Shown piece by piece: positions 16,550-30,880 of a DNA stretch of 64,000 nt. The stretch's first letter is position 1; each line of letters opens with the position of its first letter. Location: the NCBI RefSeq assembly GCF_016634425.1, contig NZ_JAEPES010000004.1, positions 410,925 to 474,924 on the forward strand. Direction: 5' to 3'. Below the pieces are notes generated by a model. The model was not told where the DNA came from. It searched no databases and saw only the letters and a list, made by a program, of their open reading frames with translations. This DNA is from Lacisediminihabitans changchengi. GTDB lineage: Bacteria > Actinomycetota > Actinomycetes > Actinomycetales > Microbacteriaceae. The position numbers were made by a program, and so were the translations under genes.

Positions 16550-16666
16550 CCCACCAACATTATCTATGCGGCGAGATTTTCTCGACTCGGAATCGACGAT
16601 TCGTCCAGGCAATTCCTCCAATATCGCCCGAAACCATGGATATTCGAGCAGGATGCTGGACATTCT

Positions 16667-17289
16667 TCACGTTGACTTAGTTCGGTCGTGCACTGAGCGG
16701 GCAGCTCGCGCGGCTCGCCGGAGAGCCGCGGCCCAGTCGGTGTCGAATCCACCGGGCTCGACGGGGGTGACTGTGATGCCGAAGCCAGCGACCTCTTGGG
16801 CAAGCGACTCGGTGAGACCCTCGAGCGCCCACGTGGATGCATGGTAGCCACCGGGGTTCGGGAAGGCCGCGACGCCGCCGATTGTCGACACCTGGATGAT
16901 GTGTGCCCCGAGGCCTGCTCCCGCATGATCGGCAGCACGGCCTGCGTGGCATTGACCACGCCGAACAGGTTGGTCTCGAGCTGGTCGCGCAGCTGCTCCG
17001 GCGTGATCTCCTCGACAGTGCCGAAGAGGCCATATCCCGCGTTATTGACGACGATGTCAATCTGCCCGAACGTGTCGTGCGCTGTCTTCACCGCGCCGAA
17101 AGCCTGCTCGCGGTTGGTGACATCGAGCTGGATCGGCCGGACGGCGTCGCCGTACTTCTCCACCAGGTCATCCAGCGCCGACATATTACGTGCTGTGGCG
17201 GCGACCTTGTCACCGCGGTCGAGGGCGGCAACAACAAACTCGCGCCCGAAGCCCTTCGACGTTCCTGTGACAAACCAAACCTTGCTCAT
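16667..17289 (-). pseudogene. Frameshifted short-chain dehydrogenase/reductase
   Basis: The first 130 codons encode a normal classical SDR start: VTGTSKGFGREF (NAD(P)-binding TGxxxGxG), LDVTNREQ, and IVVNNAGYG (the NAG motif). Near 16899-16906 the frame breaks at a GTGTG dinucleotide run. The rest of the protein, VSTIGGVAAFPNPGGYHAS then WALEGLTESLAQEVAG, continues in another frame and includes the catalytic Ser and Tyr; the active-site YxxxK reads YHASTWA, with the Lys changed to Thr. The second frame stops early, at about 206 codons where about 280 are usual. It is divergent from a TetR gene that is frameshifted as well. Confidence 0.88.
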
Positions 17290-18080: not shown

Positions 18081-18971
18081 TCAGCCGAAGCGGCCGTTCA
18101 CGTAGTCGAAGGTGCGCGCATCGATCGGCTCCGAGAACATCGCCTCTGTGTCGCCGTGCTCGACGATCGCGCCGGGCGTTCCCTGCGCGGCGAGGAAGAA
18201 GGCGCACTGGGTCGATACCCGCTGGGCCTGCTGCATGTTGTGGGTGACGATCACGATCGTGACGTCGTTGACCAACTCGAGCATGGTCTCTTCGATGACG
18301 CGGGTCGAGGTGGGGTCGAGGGCAGAGCACGGCTCGTCCATCAGCAGTACACGCGGGGTCACCGCCAGCGAGCGTGCGATGCAGAGCCGCTGCTGCTGCC
18401 CACCGGAGAGTCCGCCGCCGGGAGCCCGCAGGCGATCCTTCACCTCTTTCCAGAGGCCGGCCTTGGTGAGGCAACTCTCGACCAGGAAGTCGCGCTGGTC
18501 GCGATCGGCGTGGGTTCCGGTGAGTTTGAGCCCCGCCAGCACGTTGTCGTAGATCGACATCGCCGGAAACGGGTTCGGCTTCTGAAAGACCATTCCGATG
18601 CTCTTGCGCGCCTCGACCAGCTTGCGATCGGCGTTGTAGATGTCCTGCCCGTCGATCAGCACCTCACCGGCGAGGCTGGCGGATGGCACCAGCTCGTGCA
18701 TCCGGTTCAGGATGCGCAGGAAAGTCGACTTGCCGCACCCCGAAGGCCCGATGAGCGACGTGATAACGCCGGCCGGCATCGTCAGGGAGACCCGATCGAG
18801 TACCTGGTGGTCGCCAAACCAGGCGGAGATGTCGCGTGCCTCGAGGGATGCCAGCGGCTCGGGTTCTGCAGGTGGCAGATCGAGCGCGGGTGCCGACCGT
18901 CGCGGCAGACGGGCGAACAACGAGCGCGGCGAGGGCAGCACGCGGGTGACATCGGTGAGTTGGTCGGTCAT
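18081..18971 (-). CDS. pstB: Pst-type ABC transporter ATP-binding protein
   Basis: This 296-residue ATPase is the last gene of a ten-gene array. Walker A is GPSGCGKST (75-83), [10 protein letters not shown] is the PstB-specific Q-loop, the signature is [16 protein letters not shown], Walker B is [13 protein letters not shown], and [13 protein letters not shown] is the switch. These mark PstB rather than a generic importer. It carries about 40 extra N-terminal residues rich in Pro and Arg compared with usual PstB. It lies 14 bases after the sortase-fold gene and more than 8 kb from its permeases, a strange gene order. No phoU is present in the array. Confidence 0.95.
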
Positions 18972-18985
18972 GGGGTTCCCTGCGA

Positions 18986-19957
18986 TCAGAGGAGGTTGGG
19001 CAAGAGGATGGTCACCTGGTTGGTGACGTAGATACCGGCGAGCACGGTGAGCGGAACGAACACGATCCAGGTCTTCTGTGCGCCGATGCGGCGGTAGGCC
19101 CAGACCGCGCCGATCTCGACCACGATGAGGAACTGCAGCGCGAACACCAGCGCCCAGACCGTGGTGGTGTCGGAGGCGAGAGGCGCGTCTTCAGGCGGCA
19201 AAGAAACGATCGTGGTCTGACGCTGCCCTACGGGTAGCGCCGCGGAGGTCGCCTGTGCATCGACATAGGCAACGCCGGATGGAGCGAATGGCGCTCCTCG
19301 AGCGGTTTCCAGAATCAGACGGCTCTGCTTACCATTCGGCGCTGTGGGCACCGGATCTCCGGCGTAGCGCACGCCAATCACGGAAAAATCAGTAACACCC
19401 TGCCCGGTGCGCGCCGTGAAGGTATCGCCCGGGGCGAGCTCTTGGATTCGCGCAAAAGGCCCACCGAATGCCGAAGCGCGACCCAGGATCACACTGGTGC
19501 CGATTTGCCCCGGCAGTACCGTGTCGCGTCGATGACCGGGGCCGGCGGTGAGTGTGCTCGAGGATGTTCCCTCCACGAACACCTGGTTAACGCCCAGGCT
19601 GGGGATGGATATGAATCCGAGCGGAGTGCCGTCTTCGAGAAGGTGGTCGTCGAAATCCCCTTCGCTCACAGGAAGAGTCCCCGCGGCAAACTGTTCCGAG
19701 ATGGAGTCGCGTAGTCGTTGTTGCGCCACCAGGTGTTGCACCTGACTGAGAACCGTAACGTTCAGCACGAATGCGATCAGGAGCGCAGCGACAATGGCGA
19801 GAGTGCTTCGAACAAAGAACTGAGCCGGCGTGAGCACAACTGGTGGACGCGGAGCACGCGGGAGCCGTCGCGGAGGCTTAGGCGTACGCGGAGGTTTCGG
19901 GGCGGAGCCGCGACGATTGCCTGAAGCCGGCGGGGCCTCGATGACTGGACTGATCAC
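18986..19957 (-). CDS. Sortase-fold membrane protein lacking catalytic Cys and His
   Basis: About 323 residues: a Pro/Arg-rich cytoplasmic N-terminus, a membrane helix ([20 protein letters not shown]), an extracellular sortase-like domain, and two C-terminal helices ([20 protein letters not shown] and [13 protein letters not shown]). The domain follows sortase landmarks: [30 protein letters not shown], and [15 protein letters not shown], where sortases have GHR. At the LxTC position it reads [13 protein letters not shown]. There is no cysteine anywhere in the protein and the catalytic His is replaced. It is thus probably a pseudo-sortase with a structural or binding role. The GTG start overlaps the previous stop by four bases. 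Confidence 0.82.
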
Positions 19958-20679
19958 CCGACGCTCCGGAAAATCAGCGCGAGGCGCGCTAACCAGGCAA
20001 AGCGGACGCCGAGCAAGGCAATGACCGCGAGCGCTCCGCCGCAGCCGATGGCGACAACCGGCGGGACCACGACAAACGAGTCGCGGGTCACCGAAGACAG
20101 CTTCTTGCCGTCGACGATTTTCGGGGGGGAGAACTTGACGTGGGTGTGAATCGCAGTCCACTGTCCGAAGCCGGAGAGACTGGTCTCGACAACGCGAGTC
20201 TCGTTCGGCTTCAGCGCGCTAATCGGGAGTTTGTGTGAGGTTCCGATACGTGAGCCCACCGGGGATGTGGCCCAAAACTCGGCGGTGGAGTCGATGCTCG
20301 ACTTGGCATCATTGCGCACAGTGAACCGGAGCAAGACCTTGCTGTCGACGGGTGAACTCGACCAGACGTAGTGCGAGGAGAGACCGCTGACAAAGACGAT
20401 CCCACCGAGCCCACCGTCGTGCGACGACTCGTGAGGAGTCGATGCGCTCGGCGATGGCATCGGAGATTCACTTTCCGAGGGAGATGATCCCCCGCCGCCC
20501 GACCCAGCGCCCGACGGCGACGGCGACGGCGCCACCGTTACCGTCAATCCGATTCCGTCGTCTGACGGTGCCGCCATCGCAGACAGGCCGAATCCGCCCC
20601 CGGCGATCAACAGAACACCGAGACCGAGAAGCGCCGCGAAAAGTCGTCGAGCTAGCACATTGCGTCTAGCTGGCGTCAT
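19954..20679 (-). CDS. Membrane-tethered extracellular protein of the Pst/WxL array
   Basis: This 241-residue protein has an N-terminal signal or anchor (LFAALLGLGVLLIAGGGFGL), a Ser/Pro/Gly-rich linker (about 45-95), one beta-sandwich-like domain (residues 100-205, with LLRFTVRNDAKSSIDSTAEF and NETRVVETSLSGFGQW), and a C-terminal helix (VVAIGCGGALAVIALLGVRF). The domain looks like an Ig/DUF916-type module of the kind that follows the WxL-binding region. The first 14 bases overlap the DUF916-like gene, and its stop overlaps the sortase-fold gene. I do not recognise a named family. The context suggests a scaffold part of the same surface complex. Confidence 0.75.
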   Translation of the reverse strand: MTPARRNVLARRLFAALLGLGVLLIAGGGFGLSAMAAPSDDGIGLTVTVAPSPSPSGAGSGGGGSSPSESESPMPSPSASTPHESSHDGGLGGIVFVSGLSSHYVWSSSPVDSKVLLRFTVRNDAKSSIDSTAEFWATSPVGSRIGTSHKLPISALKPNETRVVETSLSGFGQWTAIHTHVKFSPPKIVDGKKLSSVTRDSFVVVPPVVAIGCGGALAVIALLGVRFAWLARLALIFRSVG

Positions 20680-21760
20680 TGTTCACACCCGTCGTGATGA
20701 GTTGGTCCTCGATTGCCTCGGCTGCCTTGCGTCGCGCCTCGCTCTCGGTGTGCTCGATCCAGGCGGTCGCGCGGATGCGGTCGGAACGCCGGCGGAGGCG
20801 CACGATCAGGACCACGAGGCCAGCAACCACGAGCAGGATCAGCACCCACCACGGCATCACGAATAGGGTTGAGTCTCGCTCGATGGTTCGCAGGGGGCCC
20901 GGGTTCAGAGCATCTTTATCCACAGTTGGCACAAGATTCACGTGCGGATTGAGGTAGCCCAGCTGCGGAACGCCGGGAACAGCAACGGTCACGACTCTCG
21001 TGCTGCCCGGTAGCAGTTCAGAAACACTGGTGCGGACTAGCCCGGAGGCACCGATGCCGAGGTAGGTCTTGACGTTCACCACCATGTCGGCGCCGAGGGC
21101 CACGTTCCCATTGTTGCGAACGGTGAACTTCACGTCGGTGGTGCCGTTGAAAGGGTTGAGCGATCCCGCGTAGTCGGCCGAGATATTGCCAACGGTCAAC
21201 GCGGGCTGCAGGGCTCCCTTAACCCGCACGTACATGCGGGTAGCAACTCGGCGATCAACCATGATTGACCCCTGCGCCGTGGCAACGGAGATTACGATTC
21301 CACCGGCGTGGTCCCCAGGAGCAGCATTCGACGGCACATCCAGACGGAACGAGACGACCTTCGTCTCACCGGCGGCGATCGGCAGATCTATCGAATGCTG
21401 ACCGTTCGCAAAGGTCACCCACGAGCCTCCATCAACCGGAGCCTGCTTGGTATCGAGAAGACTGAAAGCGCCCTGGGCTGTGTCGAAAGCATCTGTCGCC
21501 AAGATTTTCATCGTCTGCGCGGTGGACCCCGTGTTGCGCACGAGATATGAGTCGTCGACGTGCTGACCAGGGTCGACCTGATAGCTGAACCGAGATCGAT
21601 CGTCGGTGCTTGTCCCGTCGGATGGCGCGCCGGAGATTCCGGTGGTGTCGTCCGCGCGCGCAGGGGAGGCAGCGGAGAAAAGTCCAGCACCTAGGGCGAC
21701 GAATACTGCAAGGGCGGCAATGTGTCGAAGTGAGCGTTCGACATTCGGGTTGGCGAGCAC
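20666..21760 (-). CDS. DUF916-like (WxL-interacting, peptidoglycan-binding) membrane protein
   Basis: This 364-residue protein has a signal peptide (HIAALAVFVALGAGLFSAAS), two beta-sandwich domains and a C-terminal helix (WVLILLVVAGLVVLIVRLRR) with a charged cytoplasmic tail. Landmarks of DUF916 are FSYQVDPGQHVDDSYLVRN, FRLDVPSNAAPGDHAGGIV and RVATRMYVRVKG. The second domain (FTVRNNGNVALGADMVVNV) matches the following DUF3324-like part. In Firmicutes such proteins tether WxL proteins to the wall, and the WxL-like gene here lies immediately upstream. A terminator-like hairpin separates the two. Confidence 0.85.
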   Translation of the reverse strand: MLANPNVERSLRHIAALAVFVALGAGLFSAASPARADDTTGISGAPSDGTSTDDRSRFSYQVDPGQHVDDSYLVRNTGSTAQTMKILATDAFDTAQGAFSLLDTKQAPVDGGSWVTFANGQHSIDLPIAAGETKVVSFRLDVPSNAAPGDHAGGIVISVATAQGSIMVDRRVATRMYVRVKGALQPALTVGNISADYAGSLNPFNGTTDVKFTVRNNGNVALGADMVVNVKTYLGIGASGLVRTSVSELLPGSTRVVTVAVPGVPQLGYLNPHVNLVPTVDKDALNPGPLRTIERDSTLFVMPWWVLILLVVAGLVVLIVRLRRRSDRIRATAWIEHTESEARRKAAEAIEDQLITTGVNNDAS

Positions 21761-21898: not shown

Positions 21899-22975
21899 CT
21901 ACTTCGAGGTGAGCGTGAGCGTCAGGGTCGAGTCGTACGTGCCGGCCGCAGCCGTCGCCGGGGCGACGAATGTGAGGTCGGCGTTCACGACGGTGTCACC
22001 GACGTTTACGCCGTTGTCCGCCGAGGCGAACGCTGCGTCGTAGACGGCGGTTCCGGCGGCTTGCTTCGTCCCGGCAGTGATGTTCGCACCGGTCGGCTTG
22101 CTGATCAGCTTGGGCGCGAAGCCCAGCTGCGCCTTCGAGATCGTCTTGGTGTTGTCACCCTCGAGCACGAAGTCCGTCACCTTGGTAGTAAGGTCCCAGC
22201 CCGTGTGGCTCGCGACGCGCCCGTCACTCACCTTCACGTCGCCGAGCGTTCCGGTCGACGTGGAGAGCTGCGTGGCCGGATCGAGCACCGGGTTACCGAT
22301 GAGCACAGTGGTCGCCGCGGGGGCAACCAGGCTGAGTACGCCATCCTGGGCTGCGAGAGTGGTCGCTTTCAGGTTGAGGTCAGCGGAGCCGGTCGGCGGG
22401 GTGGGCGGGGTGGTCGAGCCGGTCTCGGTGGGCTGGTCGACCGTGAACTTTCCCGTGACGGCGGTCACGTGGATCGACGCGAAGAAGACACCAGTGGATG
22501 CCAGCTTCGAACCGTTGTTGATAGTGCAGGCAAGGCCGATGCTGTAGTCACCGCCCGCTGCCTTCACTGCTGCCGCGTTGCCGACATTCTGCTGATACGG
22601 GGACGTAGTGAACTGAGCGACGTTCTTGCTGCCGGCCGGGTAGAACAACGAAGACCCCACCGCCGAGTAGTTGGCCATGGTGAATTCCTGCCCCTTGGGG
22701 GCGAGGAAGGTTACCGAACCGGTCGCGTCGGCGGGGCACACGTACGGAGTGGAAACGTCTGCGGGATTGTTGAATCCGAAATTGTCGTCGTTCCAGTCGA
22801 TGACGGACCCGGCCGGGATCAGCGCGTTGGTGTTGCTGTCGCCGATGTACACCGGCGCCTGGGATCCGTTGGGCTGGATTGCGGCGGAGGCCGAGATCGC
22901 GACCGTTGCGCCAGCAACGACTGCGAGAACGGCCGCGCCTACGAGAATGGTGCGCGATTTAGTGAAGGAGAGCAT
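21899..22975 (-). CDS. Secreted WxL-like surface protein
   Basis: This 358-residue exported protein has a clear signal peptide (ILVGAAVLAVVAGATVAISA, cut near ASA-A), an N-terminal beta-rich domain with two cysteines (YVCPAD, GLACTIN), a TTPPTPPTG linker, and a C-terminal domain that follows the WxL family. That domain has DGRVASHTGWDLTTKVTDF, with the W-x-L motif, and closes with FVAPATAAAGTYDSTLTLTL; the second usual WxL motif has Leu in place of Trp. WxL domains bind peptidoglycan non-covalently. GAAAGG lies before the ATG. There is no LPXTG anchor. The adjacent DUF916-like gene supports the assignment. Confidence 0.78.
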   Translation of the reverse strand: MLSFTKSRTILVGAAVLAVVAGATVAISASAAIQPNGSQAPVYIGDSNTNALIPAGSVIDWNDDNFGFNNPADVSTPYVCPADATGSVTFLAPKGQEFTMANYSAVGSSLFYPAGSKNVAQFTTSPYQQNVGNAAAVKAAGGDYSIGLACTINNGSKLASTGVFFASIHVTAVTGKFTVDQPTETGSTTPPTPPTGSADLNLKATTLAAQDGVLSLVAPAATTVLIGNPVLDPATQLSTSTGTLGDVKVSDGRVASHTGWDLTTKVTDFVLEGDNTKTISKAQLGFAPKLISKPTGANITAGTKQAAGTAVYDAAFASADNGVNVGDTVVNADLTFVAPATAAAGTYDSTLTLTLTSK

Positions 22976-22998: not shown

Positions 22999-24126
22999 TT
23001 AGGAGGCGTTGGCGCGGAGGATGGTGGTGGACGACGGAGCGAGGAAGCCGAACTTGGCCTTGACAGCGCCCGAGGTGGTCGGGCCGGTGCCGAAGTTGCT
23101 GAGGCTCTTCGCCTTCGTGGGGTTCACGAGGTCAGCAAGACCCTGCTCGAACTTCGCGTTCGCACTGTCGATTCGTGCGTACTCAACGACCATGTAGGTG
23201 TCTCGACCCCACACGGAGTTGGCGTAGTAGGTCGAGTTGGCAGCGAGCGCGGTGCCGGTTCCGGTGAAAGGCGCAGTGCCGATCGGCGAACCCAGCGCTG
23301 CGGCTCCGGTACGGTTCTGAGCTGCGCCGTTGCTCTGCGCGATGAAGCTCGCGACGGAGAACGGAGCGATCTGGCCGACGGCCGTAAGGGCGGTTCCATC
23401 GTTCTCGTTGATGGCGGCGAACGTAGGGTTAGCCCCGTTGTTCGTGACACAGTTGACGAGCGCCTGGTTGTCGGTCACGCCAATCGCGCCCAGGAAAAAC
23501 TTGCGGGTGCCCGAGCCTGCCTGCGGCAGCAACGGCTGCACCGTTACTCCGTTGATCACGTTCGCGCCGGCAACGCAGGTGTAGATCTGCGTGAGCTGCG
23601 CGGTGGTGATGGAACCGAGCGCCGCGGCCGATCCGTTGAACGCATAGGTAACCGCATCGCGAGCGAAGGGCACGTAGGCGAGTACACCGCTTGCGGTGTT
23701 GGTAGCCGAGCCAGGGCCGCTGGAGGAGCGAGCGACATCGACCTGACCGGGGATCTTCATTGTCGGCGTCGAGTTGTTCGCGACGGCAAAGGTCTCTCCG
23801 TCGATCGAGCGGCTGAGAGCCTTCACGCCGTCACCAGACCCAGCGGGTCGAGCGAAGGACGGGCCACCCTGCTTCACCTGGATGGCTGCCGAGCCGAACG
23901 CGTCGAAGGAACCGAGCGAAGCTCCGGAGCTTGCGAGCACGCGCACCGAAGACCCCGTGATGGAGGTGCCGTTAACCAGGGCGTTCGAGACGTCCTGGAG
24001 AGTGTCGGACCCTACGAGTGTGTAGCTATTGGAGATCGGGTCTGCGTGAGCGGGAACTGCGATGGCGACACCGGCGATGGCGACACCGACTGCTGCGCAA
24101 ACGGCAGCGGCCTTGATCTTCTTCAC
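22999..24126 (-). CDS. Secreted phosphate-type substrate-binding protein
   Basis: About 375 residues start at a GTG preceded by GAAAGGAAAC. The signal peptide is AAAVCAAVGVAIAGVAIAVP, cleaved around AHA-D, and the mature protein begins DPISNSYTLVGSDTLQDVSN, the PBP-like opening (GSDTLQD) used to bind oxyanions. Later landmarks are VPFARDAVTYAF, QIYTCVAG (tip loop), QAGSGTRKFFL (second oxyanion loop, GSGT) and VWGRDTYMVVEYARID. There is no lipobox and no C-terminal anchor, so it should be freely secreted or bound by the surface complex. It is the second of three binding-protein-like products in this array. Confidence 0.85.
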   Translation of the reverse strand: MKKIKAAAVCAAVGVAIAGVAIAVPAHADPISNSYTLVGSDTLQDVSNALVNGTSITGSSVRVLASSGASLGSFDAFGSAAIQVKQGGPSFARPAGSGDGVKALSRSIDGETFAVANNSTPTMKIPGQVDVARSSSGPGSATNTASGVLAYVPFARDAVTYAFNGSAAALGSITTAQLTQIYTCVAGANVINGVTVQPLLPQAGSGTRKFFLGAIGVTDNQALVNCVTNNGANPTFAAINENDGTALTAVGQIAPFSVASFIAQSNGAAQNRTGAAALGSPIGTAPFTGTGTALAANSTYYANSVWGRDTYMVVEYARIDSANAKFEQGLADLVNPTKAKSLSNFGTGPTTSGAVKAKFGFLAPSSTTILRANAS

Positions 24127-24236
24127 TTCGTTTCCTTTCGAGGGGGGGGGTTCGACCACTCGCGGGAGGCGGTTGATCGACTTGGCGTCCGCTGCGACGG
24201 ACGTCGGCTGGCGTTCGGGTCCAAGAATGTGGGGCA

Positions 24237-26768
24237 TCAGATCCGTCGTCTGAGTCGGGGGATGATTGGAACAGCGAGCGCGGCGATGATGCCGGCGAGG
24301 AGGCTGAGTGGGACCGCGGACGCGATCTCGCTCATGTCGTGGTCCTTTGGGGTGACGCCACTGGTAAGGCTCAGCGCTGGGTCCCCCGATGCACTAGGTC
24401 CAGCGAATGTCGGAGAAGGCGTGTCGCTCGAACCTCCAGTGCCCGCGCTGGTCGCATCGTCTGCGCTTACCGCCGAGTCGCCCGATTCGACGGTTGGCGG
24501 CAGGACCGAAACTCCCGCGACGATCGCAGCGGCAGCGTTTTTCGAAAGTTCACGCCACGATGCGGGAAGCGGTGCATATCCGTCTGGCAACTGCCCCTGT
24601 GCCGTTCCCGGTTCCTGCCCCTTCGTCGACGCATAGTTGATGAATGCGGCGTACGAGTCCCGAGTTGCCTGGTCGTTCTGAGTCGGATTCGTCGCGGCAT
24701 AGACCGGCATAGTTAGCGGGTACGCGGTTGGTGCCGCTTTCGCGGCCTCGCCCGCAGGGTTGTACTCGTACACCTGCGCCTGCGCGGCCGTTCGTGTCAT
24801 CGCCGCTGACGCCGCAGTCATTGCCTCGGCGGTAGGCGAAGCGAACGCACCGGCGGGGTTCCGAAGTGACGCGGACACGAGCTGATACTTCGCCGCCGAC
24901 GCCGTGTCCGTGAGGCCGAGCACGTTCTGGAAGCCTGGATTGTTTCTGACCGCCTTGATGTAAGCAGGCGGTGTCTTCGTGATGTCCCAAGGGCCGAGCA
25001 CCTGTCCATCTCCGCGAAGGGTGAGGTAGCCACCGGTGTCAAGGTCGTTTGTATATGGGCGCCAGGTGACCAGGTTGAGAGCGCCAGCCCCGTTGGGTAC
25101 AGCGGGTACTTCAGCCGGGTCCGACTTCGGGAACGAATCCATGGGTAGGGAAAGTCCAACTTTGGCCGGGTTGATCGAAGCGTCGGTCGAATTCCACGGA
25201 TTGACGAACATTCCCCAGGCATCAGGTTTGCCGGCGACGAAGTCACGACCTTCCTGGTCGGCCATCACATAACGCCAGAGCTGAAATGCCACGTCGGACC
25301 GGCCCTGCGGAACCAAGAGATCGGCGAGTGACGGCGAAACGAGGGCCTGAGTCTTCCACTCTGGGTCGTTGATCGCCAGGAAGTCAGGATCAGTCGTCAG
25401 GTTCCGGGCATTGTGCCCCGGGTTGGCTGGGCTGTGGTATCCGATGTCACTCTTGTCACCAGGCAAAGAGTCCAGATACGAGTTCGTGAGTAGCTTCGCG
25501 ATCAGACGCGGAGTGAGCTTCATCGAGCTAAATGCCTGATTCGCCTTGGCCAGGTCGGCAGAGTCGGTGTTCGGGCCTGCGAGCGGTCGCCTATCGATGG
25601 CGAACGCGACAGAGATTCCCGATAGTGCGATAGGGGCGTAGACGTCTGGATCGGGCGAACCGTCGGATGTATCGAGAGCGCGCGAGGTGAGCGCGAGCGC
25701 CGCAGGTACGGCTGGATCGCTGGCCGCTCTGAGCGCATCGGGCTCGGCCCCGGTGCTGATGGTGAAGATCGAGCCCGAGCTCCCCGCGCACAAAACGGGC
25801 TGCCAGGATCCGACTGCACCAGCGACGAGCTCGCTGCCGGAAATCTGCTTCTCGGCTGACCCGATCGGGCAATTGATTCCAATGGGCTTAAAGTTCACGC
25901 GGAACGCGATGCGGTGCTTCCACGCGTCCCAGAACAGCCCGGAGTGGACTATATGGCTCTCGCCAGCGTCTTGGGTTCCTCGCGGTACGACGACTATCCA
26001 GCAGGACTTCCCTGTGATCGCCGCACCCGTGGTGACGACCTTGGCACCGCAGTCAATTCCAGACGACTGTTGCGCGGTCTGCACCTCGAACTTCACCGAG
26101 CCCTTGCCGTCCGCGCTCGACCCCGCCCACTTAACCTCGTTGGAGCTGTAGGCAGTGAAGAACTCGTTGGTGTTGGGGTCGACTGTGTCGAGCTTCACGT
26201 GATTCACGACGGACGCGATTACCTTGCCCGACGGCGCCCGGAACGGGATCGAAGTATAGGTGGGGTGCGCGAAACCGTCGCCCGGAGCGGTGAACGGATC
26301 ATCCTGCGGTGCCACCTCGTCGTCGGTGACGAAGTTGTCGCGGGTAGCCCCAGGGGTGAGGAAGCCGCCGTACTGGCAGGTCGTGCGGTCGGGCTGAGCT
26401 GGCTGCCCGGCCGCCACTGCGGGGTCGTCGCCCCAGCACTGCATGATTTGCAAGAAGTTCTCTCCACCGTTGTCGGTGGCGGGCTGGGTGGATTTCTCGG
26501 CTCCGGTCCAGCTGATTTGAAGACCTTGCGCGACAAGGTCTTTGGTCTGAGCGATGGTGACCGAGAGATCCTTCATTGGTGCGTGTGCTAAATCGTCGTC
26601 AGCCTGCTTGGCCGTGATCGTCACCGCTGACGAGTCACTCGCGGTGGCCGAGGGCGCTCCGGTCCCGAAGGCTACAGAAATACCGCCGACGACAAGGGCG
26701 ACGAGAAGGCCGACGACAACCGAGGCGAGCCACGGTTTCTGCGCATGGGATTTCGAGGGCGAAAGCAC
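24237..26768 (-). CDS. Large membrane-anchored binding-protein-like surface protein
   Basis: This 843-residue protein has an N-terminal signal or anchor (WLASVVVGLLVALVVGGISV) and a C-terminal helix with a basic tail (LSLLAGIIAALAVPIIPRLR). The extracellular region has paired cysteines (IMQCWGDD/TTCQYGG, GIDCGAKV/GKSCWIVV, GINCPIG/PVLCAG). The segment YAPIALSGISVAFAIDRRPL with MKLTPRLIAKLLTNSYLD aligns in style with the PstS core (SGVTYA... and KLTP..LAKIFTG), so an expanded phosphate-binding-like domain is likely. A Thr/Ser/Pro linker precedes the anchor. I know of no characterised homologue. It lies between pstS and the second binding protein. Confidence 0.78.
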   Translation of the reverse strand: MLSPSKSHAQKPWLASVVVGLLVALVVGGISVAFGTGAPSATASDSSAVTITAKQADDDLAHAPMKDLSVTIAQTKDLVAQGLQISWTGAEKSTQPATDNGGENFLQIMQCWGDDPAVAAGQPAQPDRTTCQYGGFLTPGATRDNFVTDDEVAPQDDPFTAPGDGFAHPTYTSIPFRAPSGKVIASVVNHVKLDTVDPNTNEFFTAYSSNEVKWAGSSADGKGSVKFEVQTAQQSSGIDCGAKVVTTGAAITGKSCWIVVVPRGTQDAGESHIVHSGLFWDAWKHRIAFRVNFKPIGINCPIGSAEKQISGSELVAGAVGSWQPVLCAGSSGSIFTISTGAEPDALRAASDPAVPAALALTSRALDTSDGSPDPDVYAPIALSGISVAFAIDRRPLAGPNTDSADLAKANQAFSSMKLTPRLIAKLLTNSYLDSLPGDKSDIGYHSPANPGHNARNLTTDPDFLAINDPEWKTQALVSPSLADLLVPQGRSDVAFQLWRYVMADQEGRDFVAGKPDAWGMFVNPWNSTDASINPAKVGLSLPMDSFPKSDPAEVPAVPNGAGALNLVTWRPYTNDLDTGGYLTLRGDGQVLGPWDITKTPPAYIKAVRNNPGFQNVLGLTDTASAAKYQLVSASLRNPAGAFASPTAEAMTAASAAMTRTAAQAQVYEYNPAGEAAKAAPTAYPLTMPVYAATNPTQNDQATRDSYAAFINYASTKGQEPGTAQGQLPDGYAPLPASWRELSKNAAAAIVAGVSVLPPTVESGDSAVSADDATSAGTGGSSDTPSPTFAGPSASGDPALSLTSGVTPKDHDMSEIASAVPLSLLAGIIAALAVPIIPRLRRRI

Positions 26769-26955: not shown

Positions 26956-28563
26956 CTACTTCTTGGGGTCTGCGCCGAGCTTTTTCAGCCGTGACGAGAG
27001 CAGAGCGGGAAGCACGATGACGAGTACGAGGAATGCCCCGGCCCCGAGCATCACGAACTGTCCCGTTCCCCAACTCGCGCTGGCGAGCGTGTAGGGGGTG
27101 GAAACCGCCCCTCCCGTCGCACCGGAGCTCGCGGACGCGTCGGCGGACCCTATATCCGCCGCACTGCCAGCGGATGACGAGGCGCCATCGGTCATGGCAC
27201 CTCCGGCGGCGTTGGCGGTATTGCTGGATGATCCGCCTTTACCGCTACCGCTGACCACTGTCGCGGTTCCGGCAGCACCGGCTGTCCCCGTCGTGCACTG
27301 GTCGGGGCCCTGTTTATCGCAGGCCGCCGGCTGCGGGGCTGTTACCGCGAGCTGATTGTTCGACGGCGAGTCACCCTTCTTGAAGGTGGGGTTGTTGCAC
27401 GAGTTCGGATCAACGTTGGCGGAGCCCGCTCCGGGAACTCGCTTGATCTGGTCGAATCCGGCCAGCACGAGGTTCATCGGCAGCGGTGAGTACCCGAGCG
27501 CCGCGGCCTGCTGTTGTCCCTCGCACAGCATGTAGCTGGCGAAGGTGCCGAGAGTGTTTCCCTTGTCTGTGTTGAATACCCCTCCAACCTCGGTCGGAAC
27601 AATCATGTACGAGTAGCTAGACAGGGGGTAAGTGCGCTTGTCCGGGTTGTTGTACACCCCGTCGAGGATCTGCGTCAGGTACTCAGCAGACGAGGCGTTC
27701 GTATTGATCTGCGCCTTCAGTAGCGCAACGGCGACCGAGGGCGCGGTGGGCTCCACGTAGTAGCCGGAGGAGTTCAAGATCTTGGCGACGGGGAATCCCG
27801 ACTTGAGAGCGTACGAGTACTCGACGTAGGTGATCGCCCCTTCGCCGTAGGCCTGGCTCACGTATCCGGCGACACCGAGTGATCCGTTCTGCGCCTTCGT
27901 CGCCCCCTTTACCGGGTACTGCGAGGTCAGCCCAGCCTTGCCTGAGAACGACTGCCACAGCGCCGGGTACTGCTTAGACATCCAGAGGGTGAATTGCGCC
28001 GTCGATCCCGAGCCGTCCGAGCGAACTACGGGAACGATCGGCTTGTTGGGCATAGCCAGACCGGGATTATCCGCCGCGATCTGCGGATCATTCCAGTTCG
28101 TGATCTTGCCGGTGAATATCTTGGTGACCGTCTCGCCGCCGAGTCGCAGGTTAGTCACGCGTTTGCCACCGATTTTCACGTTGTACATGAACGACGTCCC
28201 ACCGGCAACGATCGGCATGTACGCGAACCCGCGCGGGGGCTTTTCCGCCGCAGACCCGTCCTCGGGAGAGGCCTGAAACGGAATCTCGCTCACTGCAAAG
28301 TCGACCGTGCCAGCGACGAAGTCGCGGCGCCCGGCGGACGAGCCGGTCCCGGAGTAGTTCACCGTCATTCCGTAGTTTGCTGCGACATTCTTTCGCCACT
28401 GATCGAGCGCATTCTGCGACCACGTCGAACCCGTTCCGCTGATCGGGGTGTAGGTCGCGGCCGCGGCTCGCTGGGGAGAGGAGCCCACCGCTGCCGCACC
28501 TGCGAAGAACATGACCGCGAGCAACATGCTGAAAAGTTGGATGATGCGAAAACGGGTGGTCAC
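26956..28563 (-). CDS. pstS: Phosphate-binding protein PstS with C-terminal membrane anchor
   Basis: This 535-residue exported binding protein has a signal peptide (LFSMLLAVMFFAGAAAVG), then the PstS core: ISGTGSTWSQNALDQW, VNYSGTGSSAGRRDFVAGTV, FTGKITNWNDPQIAADNPGL and VVRSDGSGSTAQFTLWMSK, the residues that wrap phosphate. After the core comes a roughly 90-residue Ala/Gly/Ser-rich linker (GSGKGGSSSNTANAAGG and similar), then a membrane helix (FVMLGAGAFLVLVIVLPALL) and a basic tail. It lacks the lipobox usual for actinobacterial PstS, so it is tethered by its C-terminus through a flexible stalk. It overlaps pstA by four bases. Confidence 0.93.
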   Translation of the reverse strand: MTTRFRIIQLFSMLLAVMFFAGAAAVGSSPQRAAAATYTPISGTGSTWSQNALDQWRKNVAANYGMTVNYSGTGSSAGRRDFVAGTVDFAVSEIPFQASPEDGSAAEKPPRGFAYMPIVAGGTSFMYNVKIGGKRVTNLRLGGETVTKIFTGKITNWNDPQIAADNPGLAMPNKPIVPVVRSDGSGSTAQFTLWMSKQYPALWQSFSGKAGLTSQYPVKGATKAQNGSLGVAGYVSQAYGEGAITYVEYSYALKSGFPVAKILNSSGYYVEPTAPSVAVALLKAQINTNASSAEYLTQILDGVYNNPDKRTYPLSSYSYMIVPTEVGGVFNTDKGNTLGTFASYMLCEGQQQAAALGYSPLPMNLVLAGFDQIKRVPGAGSANVDPNSCNNPTFKKGDSPSNNQLAVTAPQPAACDKQGPDQCTTGTAGAAGTATVVSGSGKGGSSSNTANAAGGAMTDGASSSAGSAADIGSADASASSGATGGAVSTPYTLASASWGTGQFVMLGAGAFLVLVIVLPALLSSRLKKLGADPKK

Positions 28564-29867
28564 GAGGCGGGCTCCTGGGGTGCGGGTAGAGCGGTTGCGG
28601 GCTGAGTCTGAGCGGGCTGAGGCGGTTCGGGTGCGAGCGGCCGCGACATCCGTTGCAGGTCGTCGGCGGATGCTGCGCTGACGCGACGGCGCTGGCGATC
28701 GGTAAGCTGCCCCGGCCCGCGTCCGCCGATGACGCGGGCGACCGCGAACAGCGCGAGCACGAGCAGCAGCAGCACGGCGGCGGTGCCGAAGCCGCGGGCG
28801 ATCATGTTCGGCTCCGGCGACTTGACGAAGTCGAAGACCTGCAGCGGCAGCGAGATCATCGGCCCGGAGAACGGATTCAGGTTGAGCACCGAGGTCACGC
28901 CCGAGGTCAGCAAGACGGGTGAGGTCTCCCCGATTCCGCGGGCGGTGCCCAGGATGATCGCGGTGACGAGCCCCGACCGCGCCGTCGGAAGTACCACGTG
29001 CCAGACGGTGGCCCAGCGTGTGGAGCCGAGGGCGTATGACGCCTCGCGGAGATTTCCCGGAACGAGTCGCAGCACGACATCCGAGGCCCTGATCACGATG
29101 GGAAGCATCATCACGGTGATCGCCATCGCGGCCGCGAAGCCCGACCGCTGGTGCGTGATCAACTGGATGACCGCGACGTAGACGAACAGGCCGGCGACGA
29201 TCGACGGCAGTGCGGTCATCGCGTCGGCTATGGTGCGCACGAAGCGGGCGAATCGTCCGCCGATCTCGTTGAGGAAGACCGCGGTGGTGATGCCCAACGG
29301 AATGGTGATGGTGAGCGCGATGCCGATCTGGATCAGCGAGCCCACGATGGCGTGCAGGATTCCGCCGAGTGACAGCGGATCGAGCGGCCCCGCGAGCTCC
29401 ATCGTCTCGGTGAAGAAGTTGAGATGCGGCAGCGCCTCTCGCCCGCGGATCAGAGTGTAGGCCACGACGAAGATTAAGGCCCCGAACAGGATGACCCCGG
29501 CGCTCGCCAGCAGCACCGTCATGATCCTGTCCTTGACGTCTTGCCGGTCGGAGCGGATCGCGACCAGCAGCGCGTAGAACCCGATGAAGAGGAGGAACGC
29601 GACGACGAACCAGCCGACCGCCCCCGACAACGGAAGAAACCAGCCGAACAGCAGTGTGGTGAGCGCGAGACTGGCGGCGAGCGCCCCGAGCAGGTCGAAA
29701 CGCTGGTCGAGCGTAGCGGTGCGCAGGCGACGGCGCGGGCCGGAGTCGGTGCGGTCGTGTCGTGGCGTGCTGGTGCGCGCCGGGCGACCGTCGTCGAGCA
29801 CCTGTTCGAGTTCCGCAGTGTCCACGGCAGCGCTATCGATGGAGTCCACGGTGGTCGACACGGTCAC
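28560..29867 (-). CDS. pstA: Pst-type permease PstA with extended termini
   Basis: This 435-residue permease is longer than the usual roughly 300. The N-terminal 60 residues are hydrophilic and followed by two extra membrane helices (LGALAASLALTTLLFGWFLP, FVVAFLLFIGFYALLVAI). The canonical PstA part then starts around VLLASAGVILFGALIFVVAY. Landmarks are LPSIVAGLFVYV, ASYALGSTRWATVWHVVLPT (the EAA coupling loop) and ARGIGETSPVLLT. The C-terminal 50 residues are Pro/Gln-rich and cytoplasmic. The GTG start overlaps the pstC stop (GTGA). A longer open frame upstream is antisense-derived. Confidence 0.93.
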   Translation of the reverse strand: MTVSTTVDSIDSAAVDTAELEQVLDDGRPARTSTPRHDRTDSGPRRRLRTATLDQRFDLLGALAASLALTTLLFGWFLPLSGAVGWFVVAFLLFIGFYALLVAIRSDRQDVKDRIMTVLLASAGVILFGALIFVVAYTLIRGREALPHLNFFTETMELAGPLDPLSLGGILHAIVGSLIQIGIALTITIPLGITTAVFLNEIGGRFARFVRTIADAMTALPSIVAGLFVYVAVIQLITHQRSGFAAAMAITVMMLPIVIRASDVVLRLVPGNLREASYALGSTRWATVWHVVLPTARSGLVTAIILGTARGIGETSPVLLTSGVTSVLNLNPFSGPMISLPLQVFDFVKSPEPNMIARGFGTAAVLLLLVLALFAVARVIGGRGPGQLTDRQRRRVSAASADDLQRMSRPLAPEPPQPAQTQPATALPAPQEPAS

Positions 29868-30880
29868 CCCGTTTCTGCGCCAGAGCGCGACCGGGCGACG
29901 ATGGACGACGCCGTGAAGTTGACGATGAGGGTGATGATGAACAGCACCAAGCCCGCGGCCATGAGCGCGGAGAGTCCGAACTCGCTCGCCTCGCCGTAGC
30001 GGAGCGCGATGAGAGCAGAGACCGAGTTGGTACCGGTGGTGAGCACATGCCAGTTGATGGTGAAGATCGGCGAGATGATCAGGTAGACAGCGATAGTCTC
30101 GCCGAGCGCTCGGCCCAGCCCGAGCATCGTTCCGCCGATGATGCCGCCGCGTCCGAAGGGCAGCACCACGGTGCGGATCATCCCCCAACGGGTCGAGCCG
30201 AGGGCGAGAGCAGCTTCCCGCTCCCCCACCGGCGCCTGCGAGAAGGCCTCCCGCATCACCGAGGTCTGGGTGGGAACGACCATCAGCCCGACCACGATGC
30301 CGGCGATGAAGGCCGAGGAGGTGTACGAACTCGCCTCGGTGAGGTGGTGGCCGGTCGAGTCGGTCGCCGAGAGAAACGGAATCCAGCCGAAGTAGGTGGA
30401 GATCCACTCCGACACCGGGATGACGTTCTCCTGCAGGAAGAACAGACCCCAGAGGCCGTAGATCACGCTCGGCACCGCGGCCATCAGGTCGACCAGGGAG
30501 ACGAGAGCCGACCGCATCCGCCCCGGCACGATCTCGGAGAGCAGCAACGCGGTGCCGATTGCGAGCGGAACGCCGACGCACATTGCGATGACGGCGATCG
30601 TGATGGTGCCGAACAGCACAGCGGCGATGCCGAACTGGTGCGTCTCCGGCGACCAGCGCTGCTCGAACAGGAACGAGATGCCCGACACGGAGAGTGCGTT
30701 GCCCGCCCGCACCGAGAGGAAGAGTCCGACAGCCAGCATGATCCCGACCGTGGTCGCACCGGCGGTGTAACTCACTGCCCGGAAGGCCGAGTCGGAACGC
30801 GATGGCGCAGACAGCAATGATCGCTTCACCGGCGGCAACACCGTGCCGCGGTCGTCACGCAAGGCGGTTTCGATCGCCAC
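29864..30880 (-). CDS. pstC: Pst-type permease PstC
   Basis: This 338-residue permease with six membrane helices is the first gene of the array. Landmarks are SFLFEQRWSPETHQFG (the PstC periplasmic segment F.....W.P....FG), AAVPSVIYGLWGLFFL, the coupling loop REAALALGSTRWGMIRTVVL and GLGRALGETIAVYLI. The GTG start has GAGGTGAG just upstream. With PstA it forms the membrane channel of a phosphate-type importer powered by PstB. Only 132 bases separate it from the kinase gene upstream, and no PHO-box-like direct repeats are convincing there. Confidence 0.95.
   Translation of the reverse strand: MAIETALRDDRGTVLPPVKRSLLSAPSRSDSAFRAVSYTAGATTVGIMLAVGLFLSVRAGNALSVSGISFLFEQRWSPETHQFGIAAVLFGTITIAVIAMCVGVPLAIGTALLLSEIVPGRMRSALVSLVDLMAAVPSVIYGLWGLFFLQENVIPVSEWISTYFGWIPFLSATDSTGHHLTEASSYTSSAFIAGIVVGLMVVPTQTSVMREAFSQAPVGEREAALALGSTRWGMIRTVVLPFGRGGIIGGTMLGLGRALGETIAVYLIISPIFTINWHVLTTGTNSVSALIALRYGEASEFGLSALMAAGLVLFIITLIVNFTASSIVARSRSGAETG

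Follow-up and report, generated by a model that had tools for sequence, protein, structure and literature searches.

A predicted sortase-fold family without the catalytic residues is encoded with phosphate transporter genes in Actinomycetota

Sortases are enzymes that fix proteins to the cell wall. For the class E enzyme SrtE1 of Streptomyces coelicolor, the available part of one report names His251, Cys320 and Arg329 together with the substrate residue Tyr229 (PMC5148588). Bacillus subtilis YwpE is a small natural sortase relative which, according to the accessible text, apparently does not work as one (PMC3222306); it is a truncated piece of 102 residues keeping the LxTC motif, whereas the protein described here is a full barrel in which the catalytic residues are replaced. 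In the sections at hand, the "inactive sortase" of PMC3516528 is a made mutant, and PMC8615915 deals with a degenerate cleavage motif and not with a degenerate sortase. Regarding the surrounding genes, the closest described systems are the phosphate ABC transporter PstSCAB and the WxL/Csc clusters of Firmicutes, in which WxL-like proteins and WxL-interacting proteins (WxLIP) are encoded together (cluster definition in the available part of PMC9772566). Neither a pseudo-sortase family nor a Pst-linked sortase appeared among the matches listed in the open-access literature (titles and abstract starts), which leaves room for a description elsewhere in print, and the word "sortase" is absent from the accessible part of a review on actinobacterial phosphate transport (PMC7866108).

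Here we describe such a protein, hereafter the pseudo-sortase, encoded in a 64-kb stretch of Lacisediminihabitans changchengi DNA (the window, meaning the whole stretch that was analysed). Its gene and the positions discussed below are as follows:

18986..19957, minus strand: pseudo-sortase gene, 323 aa, GTG start at 19957, TGA at 18986, no Cys
19682..19828, minus strand: predicted long N-terminal helix, residues 44-92, holding TM1 (AlphaFold secondary structure; hydrophobic stretch in homologues)
19250..19624, minus strand: predicted sortase beta-barrel, residues 112-236 (AlphaFold model and structural matches)
19529..19531, minus strand: R143, counterpart of the substrate Tyr in class E (alignment; reading of the GPGHY/GPGHR motif)
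19478..19480, minus strand: R160, catalytic His position (family alignment)
19301..19303, minus strand: A219, catalytic Cys position (family alignment)
19271..19273, minus strand: V229, catalytic Arg position (family alignment)
19088..19168, minus strand: predicted C-terminal helix TM2, residues 264-290 (AlphaFold model)
19004..19081, minus strand: predicted C-terminal helix TM3, residues 293-318 (AlphaFold model)
18989..19006, minus strand: C-terminal LLPNLL, residues 318-323 (alignment)

The sortase landmarks quoted by the initial annotation are all present in this 323-residue frame ([46 protein letters not shown]). Its start codon overlaps the stop codon of the upstream 241-aa gene as GTGA, and 14 bases lie between the end of the gene and the start of pstB downstream, so that the gene looks like part of an operon, whose other members are:

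29864..30880, minus strand: PstC permease (TIGR02138, 247.2 bits, cut-off 196.45)
28560..29867, minus strand: PstA (TIGR00974, 217 bits, cut-off 193.45)
26956..28563, minus strand: PstS, with a C-terminal membrane helix by eye (TIGR00975, 226.9 bits, cut-off 205)
24237..26768, minus strand: PBP843, 843-aa membrane-anchored protein of predicted PstS fold (model compared with PstS; co-occurrence)
22999..24237, minus strand: PBP412, 412-aa PstS-like binding protein (TIGR02136, E 0.0021, far below cut-off)
21899..22975, minus strand: 358-aa secreted protein of a WxL-like family (no Pfam match itself; PF13731 in relatives)
20666..21760, minus strand: WxL-interacting protein (WxLIP_PGBD, PF06030; E 3.1e-07, 30.9 bits, cut-off 27.3)
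19954..20679, minus strand: 241-aa protein (p241), by eye with a hydrophobic stretch near each end (no Pfam family above cut-off)
18081..18971, minus strand: PstB ATPase, directly downstream of the pseudo-sortase (TIGR00972, 331.7 bits, just under the cut-off of 343.2)

The order toward downstream is PstC, PstA, PstS, PBP843, PBP412, the WxL-like protein, WxLIP, the 241-aa protein, the pseudo-sortase and PstB. PstA probably starts at a GTG overlapping the PstC stop as GTGA (our choice), its open frame extending to 30581. As in PstSCAB, the four transporter components share one operon; here, however, two additional PstS-like proteins and the pseudo-sortase are found and PstS bears a C-terminal membrane helix. 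As in the WxL/Csc clusters, WxL-like and WxLIP genes occur together, but they are embedded in a phosphate ABC transporter operon, and many related arrays show no WxL genes. Among scanned relatives, 4/17 of those of the 358-aa protein carry PF13731 (WxL) and 7/15 of those of PBP412 carry PBP_like_2, while the p241 profile also matches frames at the WxLIP position. Some of these relatives contain Ig-like or fibronectin domains (I-set in 2/17 and fn3 in 1/17; Big_3_5 in 3/15), and the displayed part may thus be exchangeable between arrays. PBP843 is modelled (pLDDT 88) with a beta-rich N-terminal extension, a region (residues 302-753) superposing on PstS with a Z of about 30, and a C-terminal helix. 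Its family consensus, read by eye, seems to be GxSDA at the place of the PstS phosphate loop, which we take to be of the RSDGSGT type, and PBP843 may no longer bind phosphate in the usual way. Elsewhere in the window, a short-chain dehydrogenase gene (16564-17289) matches its family over about the first 130 residues only, the remainder being unlike the family, and is probably frameshifted or truncated.

A second Pst set is encoded elsewhere in the genome (PstS at C4:55324 and PstB at C4:58680, both above cut-offs), and the array of the window is hence an additional system. Sortases with His and Cys are likewise present in the host, on contigs C1 and C3 (with equal scores, and apparently copies of each other) and at C4:402035. 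The C1 and C3 matches, sortase included, are mirrored with equal scores over about 907848-1147911 and 187016-426411, respectively; this looks like a duplicated stretch of the assembly and is consistent with its contamination value of 11.6%.

By prediction, the 323-aa protein is a sortase barrel, in agreement with the fold initially proposed. The Pfam Sortase family (PF04203) matches residues 116-197 only, the N-terminal part of the domain, with E 2.3e-10 (40.7 bits, cut-off 26.6), and the top NCBIfam model is the class E sortase NF033747, at 54.6 bits below its cut-off of 160. A phmmer search against solved structures returned 15 sequences, all of them sortases (best 5uus, E 5.1e-07), counting 5go6, a "putative secreted protein" in the phmmer listing and sortase E in that of Foldseek. 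An AlphaFold model built from 55 family sequences (mean pLDDT 92.2, pTM 0.82) places a helix at residues 44-92, corresponding to the N-terminal membrane helix of membrane-bound sortases, a barrel at 112-236 and two further helices at 264-290 and 293-318. The best 50 of 113 PDB matches found by Foldseek (E up to 0.001) were all sortases (4d70, E 2.0e-09), and solved sortases are matched by the model over approximately residues 73-240. With VIA-align, the highest structural scores were obtained with class C (6ixz, Z 17.7, 2.9 A, 163 residues) and class D (4d70, Z 17.4, 2.6 A, 148 residues) enzymes, from which the pseudo-sortase differs by its lack of catalytic residues and its pst context. The barrel of class E SrtE1 (5cuw) superposes with Z 14.9 and 2.0 A over 129 residues, and all 55 members of the alignment used (A1) match the NCBIfam class E model at E<=0.001; nevertheless, each of the SrtE1 residues His251, Cys320, Arg329 and Tyr229 is replaced in the pseudo-sortase. 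The protein is a member of the sortase superfamily by fold and, by its catalytic features, not a sortase enzyme.

Homologues were collected as family-profile matches among the open reading frames of all fetched loci, giving 243 frames, of which 168 are distinct. The 122 distinct frames above 118 bits (119 to 459 bits) constitute the family and include three fragments (L131, L133, L167) and one broken copy (L051), while the 46 lower-scoring frames comprise 43 active sortases and three that were set aside, namely L134 (a C-terminal family fragment), L190 (a fragment) and L197 (Asn and Ser). The initial annotation had seen that the His of the GHR motif and the Cys of the TLxTC motif are replaced, which the alignment bears out as R160 and A219, and the catalytic Arg, missing from its list of positions, can be added as V229. 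His, Cys and, with one exception, Arg are lost across the whole family of Pst-linked pseudo-sortases. Over the 122 sequences, the His position holds Arg in 117 and Lys in four, with one gap (fragment L133) and no His; the Cys position holds Ala in 99, Ser in 15, Gly in five, Thr in two and Val in one, with no Cys; and the Arg position holds Val in 64, Ile in 26, Ala in 13, Thr in nine and other residues, with Arg once (L177) and one gap (fragment L131). In a first alignment, which joined the window protein to 67 homologues (51 found in the sampled genomes of Microbacteriaceae, 16 in named contigs), the same catalytic pattern was seen row by row, except for the broken L051. The pre-set comparison with homologues in equivalent arrays thus turned up His or Cys in 0/122, and a sequencing error or a local mutation is ruled out, the same losses being found across the whole family. 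No sequence with a catalytic Cys or His fell within the family score range of 119 to 459 bits, although the gap to other sortases is partly expected from a search with the family's own profiles. The catalytic Arg is kept in 43/43 active sortases from the same searches, a result that is independent for Arg alone since these sequences were selected on His and Cys. Its absence is nonetheless a weaker feature, because the host's own His/Cys sortases (L001, L003) have, in our reading, no Arg at the like place either. Outside the family, the sortase-like frame L197 (G398) carries Asn in place of the His and Ser in place of the Cys; its branch is very long, and it is perhaps an independent loss.

Beyond the catalytic positions, residue 143, whose correspondence to SrtE1 Tyr229 is read from the GPGHY/GPGHR motif, is Arg in 96 of the 122 members (Leu in eight, Gln in six, Ser and Val in four each, Glu in two, Met in one, one gap) and never Tyr, against Tyr in 27/43 active sortases. 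The family also conserves R197 (116/122), D201 (110/122) and D233 (115/122), three positions that vary among active sortases, the alignment to the latter being unsure for the loop with R160, R197 and D201. A PN-containing tail is found in 111/117 full-length members. The complete lack of Cys, on which the initial annotation had insisted, is exact; it is however less telling than it sounds, since a 364-aa neighbour is likewise Cys-free and 33/122 family members have a Cys somewhere in the chain, and the informative point is that no Cys stands at the catalytic position. Among the 117 full-length members, the barrel is Cys-free in 114 (L060, L061 and L065 having two each, at non-catalytic places), and 86 are Cys-free from residue 40 to the end.

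The genomic context of the family was then considered in 107 loci containing a member, 101 of them with at least 7 kb of context. In these 101 loci, PstB was found in 95, PBP843 in 88, PstS in 86, PBP412 in 84, PstA in 70, WxLIP in 63, WxL in 53, PstC in 39 and p241 in 37, counts which are lowered by the cut ends of contigs and loci. In 103 loci with sufficient room, the next recognised gene downstream was PstB in 82, PBP412 in 11, PBP843 in one, PstC in one and none in eight. Five loci had no pst gene (L136, L141, L157, L165, L168), with array partners still present in L141, L157 and L165. Conversely, in 17 control loci with an active sortase only (L242 being stop-cut, and L169 left out as a family fragment adjoining PstB), PstS, PstA, PstC, PBP843 and PBP412 were found in 0/17; weak PstB-profile matches in 10/17 came, where inspected, from other ABC ATPases, and WxL with WxLIP occurred in one (L241). 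The array had been initially described as a Pst/WxL array; the pst operon stands, but WxLIP and WxL, at 63 and 53 of 101 loci, are ruled out as constant partners. Indeed, arrays such as L066 and L137, with no WxL genes seen, keep PstC, PstA, PstS, PBP843, PBP412 and the pseudo-sortase, which makes Pst plus PBP843 the constant core. Among 197 genomes, 26 had both the pseudo-sortase and PBP843, four the pseudo-sortase only, two PBP843 only and 165 neither (Fisher p 5e-26), a co-occurrence confounded by the sharing of one operon and obtained with a profile for the former and the window's protein for the latter; in G332, one of the four, PBP843 is seen by profile (L166).

The family is spread through Actinomycetota. 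Strong matches were found in 46/199 Microbacteriaceae genomes by our count (any match in 154/199) and in 18/198, 30/197 and 6/198 genomes of the order, class and phylum samples, the four samples overlapping in part and weaker matches being looked at where the locus was retrieved. Named genomes gave 16 loci in Microbacterium, Cryobacterium, Frigoribacterium, Lacisediminihabitans and unclassified Microbacteriaceae, and a plasmid search gave one weak match only, covering 26% of the query, on a record of 11.85 Mb. The gene is under purifying selection and maintained, since in pairwise comparisons with five relatives dN (0.20-0.28) is far under dS (1.3-1.9 in four, saturated in one), which rules out a decaying gene. 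One genome (G118) contains a broken extra copy (L051, 9234-10520) besides a full-length copy elsewhere.

Regarding its origin, 92 rows were placed on a tree by a quick method that left out the columns of His and Cys; in this tree, 39 of 89 inner branches are drawn open. On this tree the catalytic or non-catalytic label changes twice, compared with a mean of 30 after shuffling, one active sequence (L218) standing inside the non-catalytic group, at its base. When all non-catalytic rows are kept in a single clade, the best tree exceeds that of the free quick search by 17 log units (p-AU 0.84). Because of the few label changes and of this better score, the alignment data are compatible with a single old loss of the catalytic residues, without proving it. 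In a distant member (L177), His is replaced by Arg and Cys by Ser while Arg is retained, and the locus (L233) already has pst genes. The two C-terminal hydrophobic helices, present in 121/122 members (the exception, L131, stops at a contig end), had been regarded as an extra feature of the pseudo-sortase; this did not hold, as they are also found in 11/43 active sortases (L183, L195, L199, L200 and L218 among them), with LP- or MP-containing tails such as LLPPNL. An innovation of the pseudo-sortases is thereby ruled out, and the three-helix layout looks inherited from active enzymes. These active three-helix sortases resemble the pseudo-sortase in layout and C-terminal end but keep His, Cys and Arg, and of five loci inspected four lie by CcmA/CcmF-like genes, one by WxL and none by pst. 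Active three-helix sortases from other classes adjoin CcmA-like ATPase and CcmF-like genes (L235, L244, L234, L238; names by eye). Two genomes, G473 and G562, each encode a pseudo-sortase (L230, L231) plus an active three-helix sortase (L243, L244). In L241 (8849-14746), an active three-helix sortase stands beside two WxL-like proteins, a WxLIP, an LPNTG-ended protein and an ABC ATPase, and this locus is an active counterpart to the kind of assembly seen in the window.

Taken together, we consider it very probable (roughly 0.9) that the protein belongs, as a sortase-fold component without catalysis, to a surface system linked to Pst. The initial suggestion of a pseudo-sortase recruited into a complex is well supported at the level of the family, with His or Cys in 0/122 members and a predicted barrel; the structural or ligand-binding role suggested with it is conjectural. 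As to its role, the absence of the catalytic residues makes a scaffold most likely rather than an enzyme, and we give about even odds to its serving a second, surface-elaborated Pst transporter as a scaffold in the membrane or a clasp for peptides, what it binds being inferred. On this reading the pseudo-sortase is a three-helix membrane protein whose extracellular barrel goes back to an active cysteine transpeptidase, class E-like and equal in layout, and has lost His, Cys and Arg. It would work without catalysis as a fixed membrane subunit, holding the membrane-anchored PstS, PBP843 and, where present, the WxLIP and WxL proteins beside the PstC/PstA channel. The former substrate groove, in which the conserved R143, R160, R197 and D201 are presumed to lie together, would hold a juxtamembrane or loop stretch of a partner non-covalently, like a clasp, PBP843 being the likeliest partner. 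However, the Tyr that binds substrate in class E is replaced as well, the groove may not hold peptides at all, and the conserved charges would be just as compatible with an anion site or with a structural lock. The possibility that it recognises a degenerate sorting signal of PstS was considered, but the tails show no conserved motif, L[PA]xTG being present in 3/91 PstS tails of arrays (one of these well away from the helix). A looser pattern matches a few tails in most array families, and by eye the PstS of the window has no such signal.

Several other functions have to be weighed against this scaffold. A regulator or sensor of the Pst channel, in which the barrel binds an anion or a partner outside and the N-terminal tail (outside the scope of the alignment, whose homologues were trimmed at about residue 28) or the short TM2-TM3 loop signals to PstB or another cytoplasmic protein in a PhoU-like role, would fit the three membrane helices, the conserved Arg at and near the old active site and the presence of pstB as next recognised gene in 82/103 loci; yet regulation is not shown by gene order alone, the second Pst set has its own PstS and PstB over cut-offs, and we regard this role as unlikely. 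Still less likely is a chaperone or decoy that binds sorting-signal-like C-terminal segments of the anchored array proteins and shields them from genuine sortases: PstS, PBP843, WxLIP and the 241-aa protein do end, by eye, in a hydrophobic stretch and the genome also encodes His/Cys sortases, but LPxTG or LAxTG is so rare in the PstS tails (3/91) and the class E substrate Tyr is lost as well. That the protein is a hidden enzyme using other residues might be suggested by the strong conservation around the old site and by 17/122 members having Ser or Thr in place of the Cys; with Ala in 99, Gly in five and Val in one, this position offers no conserved nucleophile to replace it, the His position carries Arg or Lys in all members that cover it, and the chance of such an activity appears slight. 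Finally, a decaying relic or a local mutation, for which the broken copy L051 in G118 could be invoked, is close to excluded by 117 full-length open-frame homologues, purifying selection and deep conservation.

It is conceivable, though at present doubtful, that the array is an ancient actinobacterial phosphate-capture machine in which two components went from an active to a structural role: the sortase, now clasping its partners and no longer cutting them, and PBP843, whose phosphate loop looks replaced. Both together would form a surface scaffold offering a single Pst channel several binding proteins, and full-length pseudo-sortases could then be defined here as a family for the first time. 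Sortases are regarded as cysteine enzymes, and naming by sequence likely labels these proteins as sortases. A conserved branch without catalysis, linked to phosphate uptake throughout Actinomycetota, would indicate that a core nutrient transporter bears an accessory layer, of which the open-access literature listed gave no description, and would show a second use of the sortase barrel.
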